33,636 nt of DNA from a bacterium (lineage in GTDB: Bacteria > Patescibacteriota > Minisyncoccia > Phycocordibacterales > SBAW01): positions 1 through 33,636 of the forward strand of contig JAKBZO010000006.1 of the NCBI GenBank assembly GCA_021839985.1, given 5' to 3'. Each line of letters starts with the position of its first letter. The stretch's first letter is position 1. A model generated the notes under the pieces. That model saw only the letters and a list, made by a program, of their open reading frames with translations. It was not told the origin of the DNA and ran no database searches. The position numbers and the translations under genes were made by a program. Positions 3,089 to 30,008 of this stretch are shown one piece after another.

Positions 3089-4360
3089 TTACCTCCCGTG
3101 GCGTCGCTCTGGCCGCACCGACTCGATGAGTTCCGTGTTCGTCTTGTGTTCGGTCTTGCCGCTCCCACGATGAACACACTCGCACTTCCCTGCCGCAAGC
3201 GTCTTTTCGGAGACGACGACGCGGAGCGGTATGCCCATCAGATCGGAGTCGGCGAACTTCTCACCAGCGCGCGCATCGCGATCATCGAAGAGCACTTCGA
3301 CGCCAGAGGACGTGAGGTCGCGGTACAACTCTTCCGCCTCCGCCTTCACGTCAACACTACCGTTCGAAAGTTCGATAAGATGCACTGCAAACGGTGCGAC
3401 ACTCTCCGGCCATACGATCCCCTTCTCATCAGAAAGTACCTCGACGATCGTCCCCATGACGCGCGACGGTCCGATGCCGTAACTTCCCATAACGACCGGC
3501 TGCGATGCGCCCGCTTCATCCTTGTACGCAAGACCGAGCGCCTCCGAGAACCGCGTGCCGAGATGGAAGATGTTGCCGACCTCGATCGCTTTGCGCTCGA
3601 CAAGATCTTCGCGCTTCAAGCCGAGTTTTGCGAGCGCCTCATCGGTATAAACTTCTTTGTTGACCGCGATATGTTTGCCTTCGTGCACATAAATAATGTC
3701 TTCGCCAGCGTCGGAGATCGTCTGAAACTCCTCAGAGAATTCGCTGAAGATGCCGCCCGATGCGAAGGTCGGATAGGTCACCACGCCGAGACCGAGGCGC
3801 TCGAATGTTTTGATGTAGGCAGCGCGAGCCGCATCATACTGTCTCTGATTCTCTTCATCGGTGCGCGCGAATGAATACAGATCTTTCATGAGAAATTCGC
3901 GGCCGCGCATGATGCCTGACTTCGCGCGCATCTCATTGCGGAACTTGTTCTGGAATTGATACGCCATGAGCGGCAGGTCGCGATACGACGACACATACTC
4001 CGACATGATGCGCGTAAGCGGTTCTTCATGCGTGATGCCGAGACCGGTCTCACCGCCAGCCTTGAGACTGGTCTTGAACCAGTTGTCGACCTTCTCGTCA
4101 TCCCAACGATCGGTGCGCTCCCACAGCGTCTTGTCCTGAAGCGCCGTCATGACAAGCTCCTGTCCGCCGATCGCATTCATCTCTTCGCGTATCACATCGA
4201 CGATCTTATTGAGCGTCCGCAAGCCAAGCGGCAAGAACGAGTACACACCTGCCATCTCTTTGTGAATGAAGCCGGCGCGGATGAGAAGCTGCGCGTTCTT
4301 GGCAACTTCATCTTTAGGCGCCTCGCGGCGCGTCTTGGTAAAGAGTTGTGATTGGCGCAT
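3089..4360 (-). CDS. proS: Prolyl-tRNA synthetase, short form without the INS editing domain
   Basis: This 423-aa class II synthetase charges tRNA-Pro. Motif 2 is visible as 'FRNEMRAKSGIMRGREFLMKD', motif 3 as 'GSYGIGPSRVMG', and the C-terminal anticodon-binding domain as 'VEVLFDDRDARAGEKFADSDLMG'. Bacterial-type ProRS is normally about 570 aa with a YbaK-like INS editing domain between motifs 2 and 3. Here the spacing is too short for it, so the cis-editing domain is absent. TACAAT lies 9 nt before the ATG, consistent with a transcript with almost no leader. The gene heads the proS-mreBCD run and follows a large hairpin element at 4461-4585. Confidence 0.95.
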   Translation of the reverse strand: MRQSQLFTKTRREAPKDEVAKNAQLLIRAGFIHKEMAGVYSFLPLGLRTLNKIVDVIREEMNAIGGQELVMTALQDKTLWERTDRWDDEKVDNWFKTSLKAGGETGLGITHEEPLTRIMSEYVSSYRDLPLMAYQFQNKFRNEMRAKSGIMRGREFLMKDLYSFARTDEENQRQYDAARAAYIKTFERLGLGVVTYPTFASGGIFSEFSEEFQTISDAGEDIIYVHEGKHIAVNKEVYTDEALAKLGLKREDLVERKAIEVGNIFHLGTRFSEALGLAYKDEAGASQPVVMGSYGIGPSRVMGTIVEVLSDEKGIVWPESVAPFAVHLIELSNGSVDVKAEAEELYRDLTSSGVEVLFDDRDARAGEKFADSDLMGIPLRVVVSEKTLAAGKCECVHRGSGKTEHKTNTELIESVRPERRHGR

Positions 4361-4369
4361 AGTTCTTGC

Positions 4370-4375
4370 ATTGTA
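4370..4375 (-). promoter_or_regulatory. Putative -10 box of proS
   Basis: TACAAT on the minus strand lies 9 nt upstream of the proS ATG. A start site about 7 nt downstream of the box would leave only 2-3 nt of leader. No clear -35 was found. The call rests on similarity to better examples in this window. Confidence 0.4.
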
Positions 4376-8887: not shown

Positions 8888-10186
8888 TTATTCGCACTGT
8901 TCGCGGCTTATGGAAAGACCGATGCCAGCGAGACGATCTTCGATCTTTTCGTAGCCGCGATCGATGACATACGCATTATCGATATGCGATACGCCTGAGG
9001 CAATGGCCGCCGCGATGATGTAGGCAAGGCCGGCGCGAAGATCAGGGCTCTCAAGTTTAGCACGAGAGAGCGGTTTCGGACCGCGCACGAGGATGCGATG
9101 CGGATTCATGACCGTGATATCGGCGCCCATGCGGTTGAGATCGTCCGCATAGCGGAAGCGTCCGTCGAATATCGTCTCGAGTACCGTCGCTTCGCCCTCA
9201 GCCTGCGTGAGGAATATCGCCATGAGTGCCTGAAGGTCGGTCGGAAAACCAGGGTACTCATGCGTGCGCACGGAAATGCTTTTATAGGGCGAAGTCGCAG
9301 CGCTTCCCTGCACGCGCACGAATGTGTCACCCACTTCAAGCGGCACGCCAGCGCGCAACAGAAGATCAAGAAGCGAATGCACATGAGTGGGTTCGCACTG
9401 GCTGATCGTCACGTCATCGCCCGCAAGCGCGGCGAGCACAAGAAAACTTCCGGTCTCGATGCGGTCAGGCGGTATCGTGAATGTTTGCCCGTTCGCATGA
9501 AGCGGCTTCCCTGCCGTGCCATTGATGCGGATGACTGGCGTACCGGCGCCCTTGATGTGCGCGCCGCTTGCATTCAGCATCTGCGCGAGCGCCACGATCT
9601 CCGGTTCCATCGCTGCGTTCTCAAGTACGGTCTCGCCCTCCGCGAGAGTCGCCGCCATCATGAGCGTCTCGGTACCGGTCACCGACACAAACGGAAAGAA
9701 GATGTGCGCGCCGTGAAGCACGCCGTCCTTGGCACGCACGTGGAATTGTTCATCTCGCTCCTCAACGCTTGCACCGAGCGCTTCAAAGCCGGAGAGAAAA
9801 AGATCGATCGGCCGCTCGCCGAGCACGCAGCCGCCCGGGAACGGGAACGACACTTCGCCCATATCGGCGAGCATCGGGCCGGTCGGCACGATCGATGCGC
9901 GCAAACGCTTCGCGATCGCAGTGTCGAGCGCTGGCTTCCACTCTGCAGGGGGCACGACGGTCATCGTGTGATCTTCGAAACGGACGGTTGCGCCGGAGCT
10001 TTCGAGAAGCTCGCCCATGCGATGAATGTCTTCGATCGCCGGCATGTTGTCGAACCTCACTTCATCATCGAACAGGATGGTTGCGGCAAGAAATTTCAGC
10101 GCCGCGTTCTTCGCGCCGCTCACCGGAAGGTCGCCCCGGAGCACTCGCTTCCCCGCCAGTCCCTCGACAACAAATCGTTCTCTCAT
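8888..10186 (-). CDS. murA: UDP-N-acetylglucosamine 1-carboxyvinyltransferase MurA
   Basis: This 432-aa enzyme transfers enolpyruvate from PEP to UDP-GlcNAc, the first committed step of peptidoglycan synthesis. Visible hallmarks are the N-terminal 'VSGAKNAALKFLAA', the catalytic-loop Cys in 'FPGGCVLGERPIDL' (Cys, not the Asp found in fosfomycin-tolerant forms), and the C-terminal 'SPDLRAGLAYIIAA'. The start is set at ATG 10186 (MRERFVVEGL) instead of the track start at 10222: the inner Met gives the normal MurA N-terminus, and TACAAT lies exactly 6 nt before it. It is the first gene of a long minus-strand run with mreB, holB, nth and frr. Confidence 0.95.
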   Translation of the reverse strand: MRERFVVEGLAGKRVLRGDLPVSGAKNAALKFLAATILFDDEVRFDNMPAIEDIHRMGELLESSGATVRFEDHTMTVVPPAEWKPALDTAIAKRLRASIVPTGPMLADMGEVSFPFPGGCVLGERPIDLFLSGFEALGASVEERDEQFHVRAKDGVLHGAHIFFPFVSVTGTETLMMAATLAEGETVLENAAMEPEIVALAQMLNASGAHIKGAGTPVIRINGTAGKPLHANGQTFTIPPDRIETGSFLVLAALAGDDVTISQCEPTHVHSLLDLLLRAGVPLEVGDTFVRVQGSAATSPYKSISVRTHEYPGFPTDLQALMAIFLTQAEGEATVLETIFDGRFRYADDLNRMGADITVMNPHRILVRGPKPLSRAKLESPDLRAGLAYIIAAAIASGVSHIDNAYVIDRGYEKIEDRLAGIGLSISREQCE

Positions 10187-10192
10187 GGGGCT

Positions 10193-10221
10193 ATTGTACG
10201 CTCCACTGGTCACAATACACA
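10193..10221 (-). promoter_or_regulatory. murA promoter, leaderless type
   Basis: On the minus strand TACAAT (10198-10193) is followed by 6 nt (AGCCCC) and then the ATG. A TTGTGT hexamer lies 18 bp upstream of the -10 as a possible -35. The expected start site falls at or next to the A of ATG. No Shine-Dalgarno is present. Confidence 0.6.
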
Positions 10222-10348: not shown

Positions 10349-10383
10349 TTGGTCCTTCTCATCTCCAGCGGTAAGCTGTAGGC

Positions 10384-19131: not shown

Positions 19132-19140
19132 TGCTATGCT
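19132..19140 (+). promoter_or_regulatory. dgkA extended -10, leaderless
   Basis: TGCTATGCT is an extended -10 box that ends exactly 6 nt before the ATG at 19147. Confidence 0.55.
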
Positions 19141-20664: not shown

Positions 20665-20670
20665 ATTGTA
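20665..20670 (-). promoter_or_regulatory. -10 box of the zinc-ribbon gene, leaderless
   Basis: TACAAT on the minus strand, 6-nt spacer ACAGGC, then the ATG at 20658. This is the same geometry as murA. Confidence 0.55.
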
Positions 20671-20862: not shown

Positions 20863-20899
20863 TATTTAAAGTATACACCCGAGCAGTTCGGACACGATC

Positions 20900-21208: not shown

Positions 21209-23007
21209 TCAAGCAATTTTCCAAGTCTCTGCATAGGCTTTGTGGGAGAGAGTGCGGGCTCTTTCGTCGATGGAAGCAAACAATTTGTCGCGCGTCATCC
21301 AATCTTTTCCATTGAAATCCTCAACGAATTCATGAACCAATGGCAGCTTTAGTCCGAACTTTTTATATATTTTTTCTACTTTTTCTTGCGCTAGAGGAAT
21401 ATTTTGCGCCCTCGAGTTTGAGTGGAGAGAAATCACCATCAAATTACCGATATTATTTATGTACTCACGATCGCCCTCGTTAGCATAATCATACAGATCA
21501 CTTTTCTTGGGGTTCATGTGATCAATATTGAAGTTCTTTTTCGATATACGAAGATCAGTGTTGTAGATCTTTTCTCGGTCAGCTCCTCGTCGGCCATTGT
21601 TATTTAATCGATCGAATATGTAATAAAGCATTTTGAACGATGTCTCGCCAGGCTCGTAAGACAGTCCGGTGAAATTATCAGTAAACGAATCTATCTTTTC
21701 CTTCCGTTCGGTGAGTCCTGATATGACAGAATCAACCAGCTTATTGAGTGAAGTACTCGATTCCGCGATCTCTTTACTTTTTTCAGCATAGAATTTCTCT
21801 ATCTCGTTGTTCGGCTTCTTGCAGATAGCATTGTTAATGAAGTGAAAGCACTCCAATGCATGCAAAAGCCGCGCAAACTGCTCCATGTCAGATTCTGTGG
21901 TGCCTTCTTTTCTGATTATACGGTCGTAGGTAGCACTGACCAATGGTAAGTATTGAGAGACTTTAAAAAGTTGAAGTGCTCCTATCGAATCACATATACT
22001 TCCCAATACATATTCTTTGATCTTGGTTTTTTTACTAATACTTTCAATGAGATATTCTTCAAGTTCCTTCCTATTGGCACTAGTGAAGTTGTAGTAGCGC
22101 TCAGAGAACTCCTTGAGTCGTGCGAGGAACTCTTTAGCACCCAAGTCCTTTACGAGTGTCTTAAGTTTTTTATATAGTTCGTTCTTGCGCACATGACCTC
22201 TATTGGAGATATAAAAATATCGCAATAGCCGCACGAGATCATTGTCGGAATTTTTGAATATCTCCTCCCAATCGGTACTGATTTCTTCTTCAGAGAGTTG
22301 ATGAGTGAAGAGATGGTTTTTAAGTAGTTCAGCCGCGTTAAGCTCTATGCCGCGCGCATTCATACGCTCGAAGATATCAAGAGCCTCTAAATCATCAGAA
22401 ATCTTAATCACTACGAAATAGCAGCGATTTCGTAGTGTGTCGAGCAAATGCTGGATGTTTTCTTTACGATTGAACTTATTATCTTCAATATTCAGGGTAA
22501 AAAAATCGTAAACGGGTCTTATTCGCCGAACCTGAAGCTTAATGTGCTTACTGCCAATCTTAGGTACAAATTCACCGTCCCATTTTTGATCGACCATTTC
22601 GTTATAGATATCGGCGATGAGATGCGAGGTTTTCATTTTTGGTCTGGATTCCGTCGCCATGATGTCTGATGATCCTAAGTAGGTGTTCTGCAACTGCATC
22701 GCTGCCTCGCGTAATTTTAGTTTTTTCTCAACTTCGCGGATTGCGATAAATAAAAGTGATATTGTAGTTAGTCTCTGTTGACCATCGACCACAGAACAGG
22801 AGTTCGTTCCCTCGCTTGTTTTAAGGACTATCGTTCCCAAAAAACCCTCTTGTTTTCATCTTCCACAGCATCCATGAGGTCATTCCAAAAGTCGGAGGCC
22901 TGTTCACGACCCCATTCAAATCCGCGCTGGTTGAGCGGGACCTTAATTTCTTCATACTCTTTCAGTACGCTGTCGACTGTCTGTGAGAATGGTTGGAGTT
23001 GAGCCAT
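21209..23007 (-). CDS. GmrSD-like DUF262/DUF1524 restriction endonuclease, frameshifted near the N-terminus
   Basis: The track shows 543 aa from a TTG at 22840, but the true N-terminus is upstream in another frame: ATG 23007 gives MAQLQPFSQTVDSVL... with 'VPLNQRGFEWGREQASDFW', the DUF262 start, and stops after 59 codons. A -1 shift at a run of six T (GGGTTTTTTGGG) joins it to 'LGTIVLKTSEG'. The full protein is about 600 aa. DUF262 shows 'VVDGQQRLTTISLLF', the ParB-like nucleotide-binding motif; the C-terminal DUF1524 shows 'NFNIDHMNPKKSD' and 'NIGNLMVISLHSNSRAQN', an HNH-type nuclease. Fused GmrSD proteins cut modified (for example glucosylated or hydroxymethylated) phage DNA. The gene is more AT-rich than its neighbours, suggesting transfer. 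Confidence 0.85.
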
Positions 23008-24713: not shown

Positions 24714-24821
24714 ACTCCGATTTTACCTTGCGATGATGGGAAGAAAAATACCGCCGCTGTTCCTTCGCCTGACTGCAACTTCGCCGAACATCTTATTTTA
24801 TGCCAGTGATACAATGAGGGT
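24714..24821. promoter_or_regulatory. Back-to-back leaderless promoters of the nuclease and methyltransferase genes
   Basis: Minus strand: TAAAAT (24725-24720), 6 nt, ATG at 24713. Plus strand: TACAAT (24810-24815), 6 nt, ATG at 24822. Both have identical geometry. No operator dyad between them is obvious. Confidence 0.65.
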
Positions 24822-26522
24822 ATGAGAGTTAGCACTCAAAAAGGACAACTCGCACAATCCTTCCTCCCGGGTCTTTCTCGAGTCCAATCGGCCGTAGACG
24901 AACTGGCTGAAGCAAAAACCGACGATCGCGGCGCAATCTTCACACGGCGGGAGGTAGTGGATTTTATACTCGATCTCGCCGGTTATTCGGTCGACAAACC
25001 ACTACAGGACTTCCGACTGCTGGAACCATCCTTCGGGCACGGTGATTTTCTTATACCAGCTGTCGAGCGTCTCATAGCATCGCTCGCGCGGCAAAACCTG
25101 CGGCCAACAGCAGCCCTCCTCAAAGACAATATTCGCGGCGTGGAGCTCCACGTCGCCTCGTTCGGCAAAACGGCCGGCGAAGTCCGGGACATCCTCATCC
25201 GAAACGGACTACTGGAAAGCGATGCAAATGACCTGCTTGACGCATGGCTCGTGCGCGGCGACTTTCTCCTCACTCTCTTCGGTCACTCCTTCACGCACAT
25301 CGTGGGTAACCCTCCGTACATCCGGCAGGAAATGGTGCCGGACGCGCTCATGGCGGAATACCGTCGCCGGTTCGAGACGATCTACGACCGCGCAGACATC
25401 TACGTGCCGTTTATCGAGTACTCGCTCAAGCTGCTCGACGAAGGAGGAGTGCTCGGCTTCATCTGTGCCGACCGCTGGATGAAAAACCGCTACGGCGGTC
25501 CGCTCCGCGACCTCGTGGCGGGAGAATACCATCTTCGCACCTACGTCGATATGATCAACACGGACGCTTTTCACTCGGAGGTGATCGCGTACCCGGCCAT
25601 CACGGTGATCGCACGCGAACCCTCCGGTCCGACGCGCATAGCCAAGCAGCCGGAAATAGACGCACGCACTCTCGCGCAGCTCTCGCAAGCGCTGACACAG
25701 GATGCTCCGCACGGTGACATCCTCCAGACAACCGTATCCGCCGGCGGACCATGGACACTCGACGAGTCGGAGGCGCTCACGTTGATACGCCGCCTCGAAG
25801 CTGAGCTCCCGACGCTTGAAGAAACGGGCTGCAAGGTAGGCATCGGCGTAGCAACCGGCGCGGACAGCGTGTACATCGCACCGTTCGACACGCTCGACGT
25901 GGAGTCGGACCGGAAGCTCCCGCTCGCCATGACCAAAGACATACAAAGCGGAGTGGTGGAGTGGCGGGGTCTCGGCGTGGTGAATCCCTTCGATGAAAGC
26001 GGCAAGCTCGTGTCGCTCTCCGACTACCCGAAGCTGCGCGACTATCTCGAACGTCACGGCGATGCGATCAGGAAGCGCCACGTATCGAAGAAGAACCCGA
26101 ACGGCTGGTACCGGACCATCGACCGCATCTACCCGGAGCTCGTCACAATACCGAAACTCCTTATTCCGGACATCAAAGGCGACGCCCACATTGTCTACGA
26201 GGAGGGCAAGTTCTATCCGCACCATAACCTCTATTACATCGTATCGGACGACTGGGATTTGCAGGCGCTCCGGTCGGTACTCACGTCCGGCATCGCGCGT
26301 CTCTTCATCGAAGCGTACTCGACGCGCATGCACGGCAACTGTCTGCGCTTTCAGGCGCAGTACCTGCGACGCATACGCGTACCGCGATGGGCTGATGTGC
26401 CGAAGGATCTCCGACGCCAACTGCGCGCCGTGGCCGAAAAGGACGACGTGGCCGCGCGGGAAGACGCCGTCTCACGACTCTACTCCCTCTCGCCGTCCGA
26501 ACGTGCTACGATCAGGAAGTAA
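24822..26522 (+). CDS. N6-adenine DNA methyltransferase of a PaeR7I/XhoI-like system
   Basis: The protein has 566 aa. Motif I is '[19 protein letters not shown]' (SAM binding) and catalytic motif IV is '[15 protein letters not shown]', the NPPY type of N6-adenine methylases related to Eco57I/TaqI. An N-terminal '[22 protein letters not shown]' fits the same group, and the C-terminal third would hold the target recognition domain. The stop overlaps the start of the downstream endonuclease (TAATG), so the two are coupled. The neighbour's PaeR7I resemblance predicts methylation of the A in CTCGAG. The promoter is leaderless. Its GC content matches the core genome better than the DUF262 gene does. 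Confidence 0.9.
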
Positions 26523-27256
26523 TGGCTGTAAATCTCGCACAGTACGAAGACGGCGCTAAGCGCGCCGTAAAACTCTTCTGGGGCAACCGCGCCGCCGCAG
26601 TAAAGCAGCAGCTTGCCGCCGGAACGGTCGACCACGGGACACGCGGAGCGGTGACCGCCGGGAAGAATATGGACGGCTTTGCGTCGCTCATGGCGAGACT
26701 CGTGGAGGCGAATGGCCTCAAAAACGCCACCGTGATTCACGGCGGCCGTCTTGTCACGCTGCCCGGTTTCTTTCGGCCGACCAAACAGTGGGATCTGCTT
26801 GTGTTGAACGAAGGCCGCCTCATTGCCGCGCTCGAATTCAAGTCGCAGGTCGGCTCTTTCGGCAACAACTTCAACAATCGAACCGAGGAAGCGATCGGGA
26901 CTGCACATGACCTATGGACTGCATACCGCGACGGCGCGTTTGGCGAGCAGCCGAAGCCGTTCGTAGGATGGCTAATGCTTCTTGAAGATGCACCGGGTTC
27001 CCGTACCCCGGTGAATGATAGCTCCCCGCACTTCCCAGTGTTTCCGGACTTCAAGGGCGCATCTTATGCAGATCGTTACAACATCCTCTGTAAGAAACTC
27101 GTGCAGGAAGGGCTCTATACTGCTGCTTCCATCATGCTCTCGCCACAGACGGCACAGAACAGCGGTGAATATGCGGACATGAGCGACCTCACCAGCTTGC
27201 AGACTTTTGTCGCGACATTCGCGGGACATGTTGCAGCGGAAGCTGCTCGGAAATAG
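26522..27256 (+). CDS. PaeR7I/XhoI-family type II restriction endonuclease
   Basis: The protein has 244 aa, close to R.PaeR7I (about 246 aa). Characteristic segments are '[20 protein letters not shown]', '[20 protein letters not shown]' and '[20 protein letters not shown]'. The catalytic PD-(D/E)XK core is D in 'KQWDLLV' and E-x-K in 'ALEFKSQ'. Members cut CTCGAG, and that specificity is inferred for this one. Its ATG overlaps the methylase stop by one nt, giving a methylase-first order. CTCGAG sites occur many times in this window, so protection by the partner methylase would be essential. Confidence 0.88.
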
Positions 27257-29000: not shown

Positions 29001-29158
29001 ATGGCTACAGAAAACCCGCCACGGGTTCCGGCTTGCGCCGGACGTACAGGTTTCCCCATACGGCGGATCACGCAACCCCATGACGGGTTTTCTATGCGTG
29101 ATCCGACCGGAAGCCATGCCACCGTTGCCGATGGTTTAGGCCCTGCCCTCTCGGGCTA
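29001..29158 (-). ncRNA. Candidate structured RNA leader with four GNRA tetraloops and a pseudoknot
   Basis: Read on the minus strand, 5' to 3': GCCC-GAGA-GGGC; CCATCG-GCAA-CGGTGG; a closing stem ATGGCT with AGCCAT (29117-29112 and 29006-29001); an 11-bp hairpin CGGATCACGCA/TGCGTGATCCG (29105-29064); CGTATGGG-GAAA-CCTGTACG (29062-29043); TCCGGC-GCAA-GCCGGA (29042-29027). The 11-bp hairpin's loop carries AGAAAACCCG, which pairs perfectly with CGGGTTTTCT downstream (29018-29009), forming a pseudoknot. All four tetraloops are GNRA only on this strand. It ends 47 nt before the secreted-protein ATG. No known class was recognised; a riboswitch, ribozyme or trans-acting RNA are all possible. Confidence 0.75.
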
Positions 29159-29231: not shown

Positions 29232-29237
29232 TAGAAT
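29232..29237 (+). promoter_or_regulatory. -10 box of the 254-aa gene, leaderless
   Basis: TAGAAT is followed by a 6-nt spacer (GGAGTA) and ATG. The spacer also reads GGAG, but it is too close to the ATG to act as a normal Shine-Dalgarno. Confidence 0.55.
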
Positions 29238-29243
29238 GGAGTA

Positions 29244-30008
29244 ATGACGGCGGCAAACGATCTCGATGTGCGACGAGTTGAGTTTATAAGCGATCGGTTA
29301 AAGCAACGACTTAAGCAATCCGGAAAAACCTCTCTCATTTTTACCTTTGAAGAAATAGAGCAAATGCCATTATTCGGCAACCGCCTTGCGTTCGTTCATA
29401 CTCTCGAACTCATCCAAAAGCATTCCAAGAGAATGGTGTGTTTTGATAGCGCCGATAGCCCGCAGCAAATCCTGCCCGGTGGTTTCAGATCACCGGGCGG
29501 AAGCTCAGTCATGGACGCATTCGGTTCTGTGTTACCGCCGACGATCGTGCCATCGCAGCCGATTGGCTACACGGTGTCCATCACGTCTGACCCGAAGAAA
29601 CTCGATGTGTATTTCAACATGGTGCAAAAAGGAATCACGTCAAAATTCGAAGGCAGAGAGATTCGCTCCATTGAGGTGATTGAGAGTGATGTAGATTCAA
29701 AGGCTACTTTCATGATCAACGAAAACCCCGAGCACTGTCTGAAGCTGAAGCCGAAAAACTACTGGGAGAAATTAGTCGATGTCGCGAAGGACGGATCCAC
29801 CCACAGTAATAACGCCCGAGCCGTTGCTGACTACTTCAACAGCAACGACAAATGCCCCCTGTACACAAAGACCAAGAGAAAAAACTTCGGGTACACCCTG
29901 ACGCGTTTGTTGGTGGTCGACAACGATACTCTACGCCCTGCTCTGGGAGTTCGAATAGAAATAAAAACCCGCAAATCCATTGCTCAAAGAAAGAAGAAAA
30001 CCGCTTAA
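29244..30008 (+). CDS. Hypothetical protein (254 aa)
   Basis: No family is recognised. The protein is soluble with no membrane segment. The N-terminus 'DRLKQRLKQSGKTSLIFTFEEIEQM' looks helical. A central part has 'GGFRSPGGSSVMDAF' and 'YTVSITSDPKKLDVYFN', and the C-terminus is basic ('KTRKSIAQRKKKTA'), so nucleic-acid binding is possible but unproven. The ATG has TAGAAT exactly 6 nt upstream, a leaderless promoter. It is divergent from the structured RNA and followed by a strong terminator, so it is its own unit inside the island. Confidence 0.7.
   Translation: MTAANDLDVRRVEFISDRLKQRLKQSGKTSLIFTFEEIEQMPLFGNRLAFVHTLELIQKHSKRMVCFDSADSPQQILPGGFRSPGGSSVMDAFGSVLPPTIVPSQPIGYTVSITSDPKKLDVYFNMVQKGITSKFEGREIRSIEVIESDVDSKATFMINENPEHCLKLKPKNYWEKLVDVAKDGSTHSNNARAVADYFNSNDKCPLYTKTKRKNFGYTLTRLLVVDNDTLRPALGVRIEIKTRKSIAQRKKKTA

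Follow-up and report, generated by a model that had tools for sequence, protein, structure and literature searches.

A -10-like box at 6-9 nt before ATG starts and loss of the anti-Shine-Dalgarno sequence in an order of Patescibacteria

Genes of a Parcubacteria genome carry a TANNNT box 6-9 nt upstream of their ATG start codons, and the 16S rRNA of the same lineage lacks the anti-Shine-Dalgarno sequence CCUCC. Very probably, extended -10 promoters in this organism give rise to leaderless mRNAs that are translated from a 5'-terminal AUG without Shine-Dalgarno (SD) pairing. Under this model, promoters of the sigma-70 type would be set such that RNA polymerase starts 0-3 nt from the A of the ATG, the resulting transcripts would be leaderless and ribosomes would start directly on the terminal AUG, with SD pairing in its usual form predicted to be impossible in the lineage because the 16S rRNA has lost CCUCC. 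Both the transcription start sites and the use of the 5' AUG by the ribosome are what we infer from sequence.

A -10 box at a fixed distance from ATG starts

The window, the whole 33,636-nucleotide stretch of DNA analysed here, corresponds to contig C10 in its entirety; the genome comprises 736,398 bases in 38 contigs and has a GC content of 0.56. All 38 contigs were analysed and 678 genes were called with a simple hexamer model, which makes these our own calls and not a curated annotation. In a comparison of MurA sequences, the named relatives are Patescibacteria/Parcubacteria with isolate REEB248 and Ca. Adlerbacteria being nearest at 67% identity, and the genome is that of a Parcubacterium (Patescibacteria/CPR) close to Ca. 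Adlerbacteria. Genomes used for comparison with this source genome (G000) include two of the same genus (G002 and G003) and a complete genome of the same order (G017) whose 16S rRNA lacks CCUCC. The initial annotation of the window had reported boxes 6 nt before murA, dgkA, a zinc-ribbon gene, a methylase, a putative nuclease (ATG 24713) and a gene starting at 29244, 7 nt before a 53-aa gene and 9 nt before proS. All of these are present, together with two boxes absent from that list:

4370..4375, minus strand: TACAAT, -10 box of proS, 9 nt before ATG 4360
8888..10186, minus strand: murA coding sequence, EPSP synthase family (Pfam PF00275, E=2.6e-80)
10193..10198, minus strand: TACAAT, -10 box of murA, 6 nt before ATG 10186; start supported by MurA alignment
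10372..10377, plus strand: TAAGCT before a 631-aa gene, 6 nt before ATG 10384; newly listed
19135..19140, plus strand: TATGCT, -10 box of dgkA, 6 nt before ATG 19147
20665..20670, minus strand: TACAAT, -10 box of the zinc-ribbon gene, 6 nt before ATG 20658
20870..20875, minus strand: TATACT, -10 box of the 53-aa gene, 7 nt before ATG 20862
24720..24725, minus strand: TAAAAT, -10 box of a 388-aa gene without Pfam match, 6 nt before ATG 24713
24810..24815, plus strand: TACAAT, -10 box of the Eco57I-type methylase, 6 nt before ATG 24822
26507..26512, plus strand: TACGAT of the XhoI-type endonuclease, 9 nt before ATG 26522; newly listed
29232..29237, plus strand: TAGAAT, -10 box, 6 nt before ATG 29244

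Within the window, 7 TANNNT boxes lie at 6 nt compared to 0.93 expected per spacing (p=5e-5). A LOOT RNA (RF03000, 82.9 bits) occupies positions 29027-29142 (minus strand) in the space separating two divergent genes and immediately precedes the predicted leaderless gene at 29244.

To extend this to the whole genome, we carried out the motif search at fixed distance from starts that the initial annotation had suggested, tallying TANNNT at each spacing upstream of all in-frame ATG candidates around gene starts while leaving start codons unfixed. The box is strongly enriched at 6 nt (121 occurrences, p=5e-58), 7 nt (72, p=4e-22), 8 nt (42, p=7e-7) and 9 nt (44, p=1e-7), with 17.8 expected per spacing, and the remaining spacings within 0-30 nt are near background. 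A distance of 6 nt is consequently the mode but not the rule that "exactly 6 nt" had implied. No excess is seen before GTG or TTG starts, confining the box to ATG. Genome-wide, a box at 6-9 nt precedes about 30% of genes, and about 59%, many of them inside operons, have neither box nor SD motif under the definitions used, and leaderless initiation therefore cannot be the sole route. The breadth of the peak also bears on an improbable alternative in which the box is a promoter but the transcripts have very short leaders (1-10 nt) and are bound by the 30S subunit in the ordinary way at an unstructured start. The enriched 7-9 nt spacings would yield leaders of 1-3 nt if transcription starts 7 nt from the box; however, enrichment ends sharply at 10 nt with a mode of exactly 6 nt, while a simple tendency towards short leaders would give a broader distribution.

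Promoter character and conservation of the box

The box has the features of an extended -10 element. TGn is found directly upstream of 36% of sites compared to 9% of decoys, while -35-like hexamers accompany 17% of boxed sites and 14% of decoys, indicating at most a faint -35 element. A pyrimidine occupies position -1 in 88% of 6-nt sites, which fits a YR initiator but is not decisive, as ATG starts in general show the same (79%). For the comparisons that follow, genes are termed conserved if they have a tblastn match in the Patescibacteria sequence sampled and orphan otherwise, and some housekeeping genes, for example gyrA, consequently fall among the orphans. Among conserved genes, the boxed share is 56% for divergent genes and, for genes following another on the same strand, 39% at gaps of at least 60 nt, 27% at 20-59 nt and 16% below 20 nt. 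Box frequency in conserved genes thus follows the need for an own promoter. This distribution and the promoter grammar of the sites (TGnTATAAT, fixed spacing) argue against the box being a translational signal, such as an S1-binding site or a means of keeping structure low around the start, a very unlikely reading even though S1 has been held responsible for an AT-rich bias ahead of non-SD genes in some bacteria (PMC5397173). That the box is a product of chance or of start choice in AT-rich intergenic DNA is refuted by the positional test almost beyond doubt: TANNNT is a loose motif and about 18 matches at each spacing are background, but candidate starts were left unfixed, no peak appears at 3341 inner in-frame or 740 out-of-frame ATGs, and E. 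coli K-12 analysed with the identical pipeline yields 0% boxed genes (31% SD).

Returning to extended -10 promoters, orthologs in same-genus G003 carry a box at 6-9 nt for 25 of 51 boxed genes and for 19 of 75 unboxed genes (p=0.008), with the upstream DNA around the boxes largely diverged. Both TACAAT and the 9-nt spacing of proS are kept in G003. The 6-nt spacing of murA is found in the source genome only, with relatives showing 8-9 nt or no box, and individual spacings therefore turn over. Taken with the 6-9 nt peak, the extended -10 element and the enrichment in genes needing a promoter, this conservation in a relative supports, as strongly as sequence can, the leaderless architecture proposed in the initial annotation, with spacings wider than first described. 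In the complete genome G017, 28% of genes are boxed, and named Ca. Campbellbacteria and Ca. Wolfebacteria contigs show the peak as well. The geometry extends beyond the order: about 18% of genes show it in pooled contigs of 20 genomes from other classes, and in most of 287 Patescibacteria genomes TANAAT-N6-ATG is more frequent than its reversed control. The leaderless geometry may therefore be older than the loss of the anti-SD sequence.

A further proposal, that an island in the window is adapted to the host's expression system, gains a little from these data, the restriction-modification genes being boxed. In contrast, the GmrSD-type gene at 21209-22840 (minus strand) is unboxed, and the boxed share of orphans across the genome is 21% compared to 36% for conserved genes. 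Alternatively, the box geometry of the island could have been brought in on DNA of another Patescibacterium. The Eco57I-type methylase and XhoI/PaeR7I-type endonuclease pair (24822-27256, plus strand) shows 64-69% DNA identity to plasmid-borne restriction-modification genes of Proteobacteria. The GmrSD-type gene is AT-rich, lacks a clear start and may be truncated, its Pfam match running from residue 1 at profile position 43.

The 16S rRNA tail and the distribution of SD motifs

The 16S rRNA tail of the source genome after helix 45 reads GTGGAATGATTCAAGG, compared to the canonical GGATCACCTCC, and CCUCC is absent. The same is true of all order genomes covered (CCUCC in 0/22), comprising the source genome, 11 family or order relatives and 10 genomes from a phylum-wide scan. 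Outside the class, 91 of the 109 genomes listed from that scan, tallied by hand, possess CCTCC and 18 carry one- or two-base variants (Fisher p=2e-14 versus the 0/22 of the order), while the state is mixed inside the class but outside the order. One order genome, G216, contains a canonical 16S end on a second contig, which is probably foreign. Anti-SD sequences with one- or two-base changes (CTTCC, TCTCC, CCGCC), possibly representing intermediate states, occur in Patescibacteria family f94 and in a small number of further families. Contamination was rejected as the source of the unusual 16S rRNA: the contig carrying it (C8) matches G002 at 88% over 4 kb and its end overlaps the end of the window contig, and the tail likewise lacks CCUCC in 21 further genomes of the order. 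An intron displacing the anti-SD sequence was likewise rejected, there being no CCTCC at a conserved place downstream of the 16S rRNA, as was a substitute SD motif pairing with the new tail, whose complement is not enriched. The 16S unit ends in a conserved AACGGAACAAGAGAAAGG-like element (L169-L180, ca. 150-250 nt after the 16S rRNA) with a terminator-like repeat behind it in several genomes, and transcription of the 16S rRNA appears to be separate from that of the 23S rRNA.

AGGAG-type motifs are nonetheless enriched 5-8 nt before some ATGs (about 10% of genes), with SD-like AGGAG/AAGGA motifs at this distance before some 60-90 starts, mostly of orphans. In the source genome, the SD share is 1.2% of 410 conserved genes versus 24% of 268 genes without relatives in the Patescibacteria sample. 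The corresponding values are -1% and 30% in G003 and 0.4% and 23% in named Parcubacteria contigs, and G017 shows no SD signal in conserved or orphan genes (SD 0% overall). Conserved genes less than 20 nt from the upstream gene have an SD excess of 0% while 16% still show the leaderless geometry. The earlier statement that genes inside runs use SD sites is not supported, given this value, the 16S rRNA without CCUCC and the concentration of SD motifs in orphans. Strong-SD orphans are scattered over the source contigs (e.g. L053:13133-13948 and L024:5440-6144) and clustering in islands was rejected (6 adjacent pairs of SD orphans versus 5.3 expected). A phage origin was also rejected, with a PHROGs match for none of 10 tested. 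Among the SD-bearing genes are one for a DapD that closely resembles solved bacterial DapD enzymes and one for a protein restricted to a few members of the family. Many SD-bearing orphans are probably horizontal imports that retain the SD sites of their donors.

The source genome encodes both IF3 and a short S1-like protein of four domains. A causal loss of bS1 or IF3 was accordingly rejected, and leadered initiation is presumably retained. Two S1-like genes of near-equal score (C9:873-1883 and C6:1798-2808) cover only model positions 12-340 of 516, corresponding to a shortened bS1. bS21 was not detected in the source genome with a model that is weak in this phylum.

Relation to known systems

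In Deinococcus-Thermus and Actinobacteria, roughly one gene in three has TANNNT about 6-7 nt before the open reading frame (PMC12340547; Zheng 2011, PMC3160421), similar to the boxed share reported here. The source genome differs from these groups in its confinement to ATG, its extended -10 element and a 16S rRNA without CCUCC; Deinococcus retains GGAG-type sites (PMC12340547). CPR bacteria are not named among the groups with leaderless genes in Zheng 2011 (PMC3160421). The combination of a missing CCUCC and almost no SD motifs in conserved genes resembles the SD-scarce, CCUCC-less category iv of PMC10783764, whose account lists Flavobacteriia, reduced symbionts and single Ca. Campbellbacteria and Ca. 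Wolfebacteria genomes. That account treats single genomes in those two phyla and, in its description of the category, draws no link to leaderless promoters, whereas the loss reported here is order-wide (22/22) and accompanied by leaderless geometry. Nanoarchaea and other archaea are described there as pairing leaderless mRNAs with CCUCC loss (PMC10783764). The source genome presents the same pairing of predicted leaderless mRNAs with a lost anti-SD sequence but uses a bacterial -10 promoter. Archaeal transcription relies on a TATA box and TFB. Earlier work had thus established leaderless genes for other phyla and the loss of CCUCC for individual Campbell- and Wolfebacteria genomes, while a non-exhaustive literature search found no report of leaderless promoters in CPR, of order-wide CCUCC loss or of their combination.

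CPR bacteria account for a large part of bacterial diversity and are mostly uncultivated, yet many gene finders and expression tools presuppose starts led by SD sites; the presence of a -10 box 6-9 nt upstream offers a direct rule for correcting start calls. Order-wide anti-SD loss together with leaderless promoters constitutes a natural test of initiation without mRNA-rRNA pairing and of the fate of foreign SD-bearing genes. We tentatively consider, as a possibility we would not yet favor, that the whole order has abandoned SD pairing, with conserved genes using 5'-terminal AUGs and SD-independent starts and imports keeping donor SD sites that cannot be read in the usual way. If so, the presence of an SD motif would mark recent imports and anti-SD loss may hinder the expression of foreign genes.
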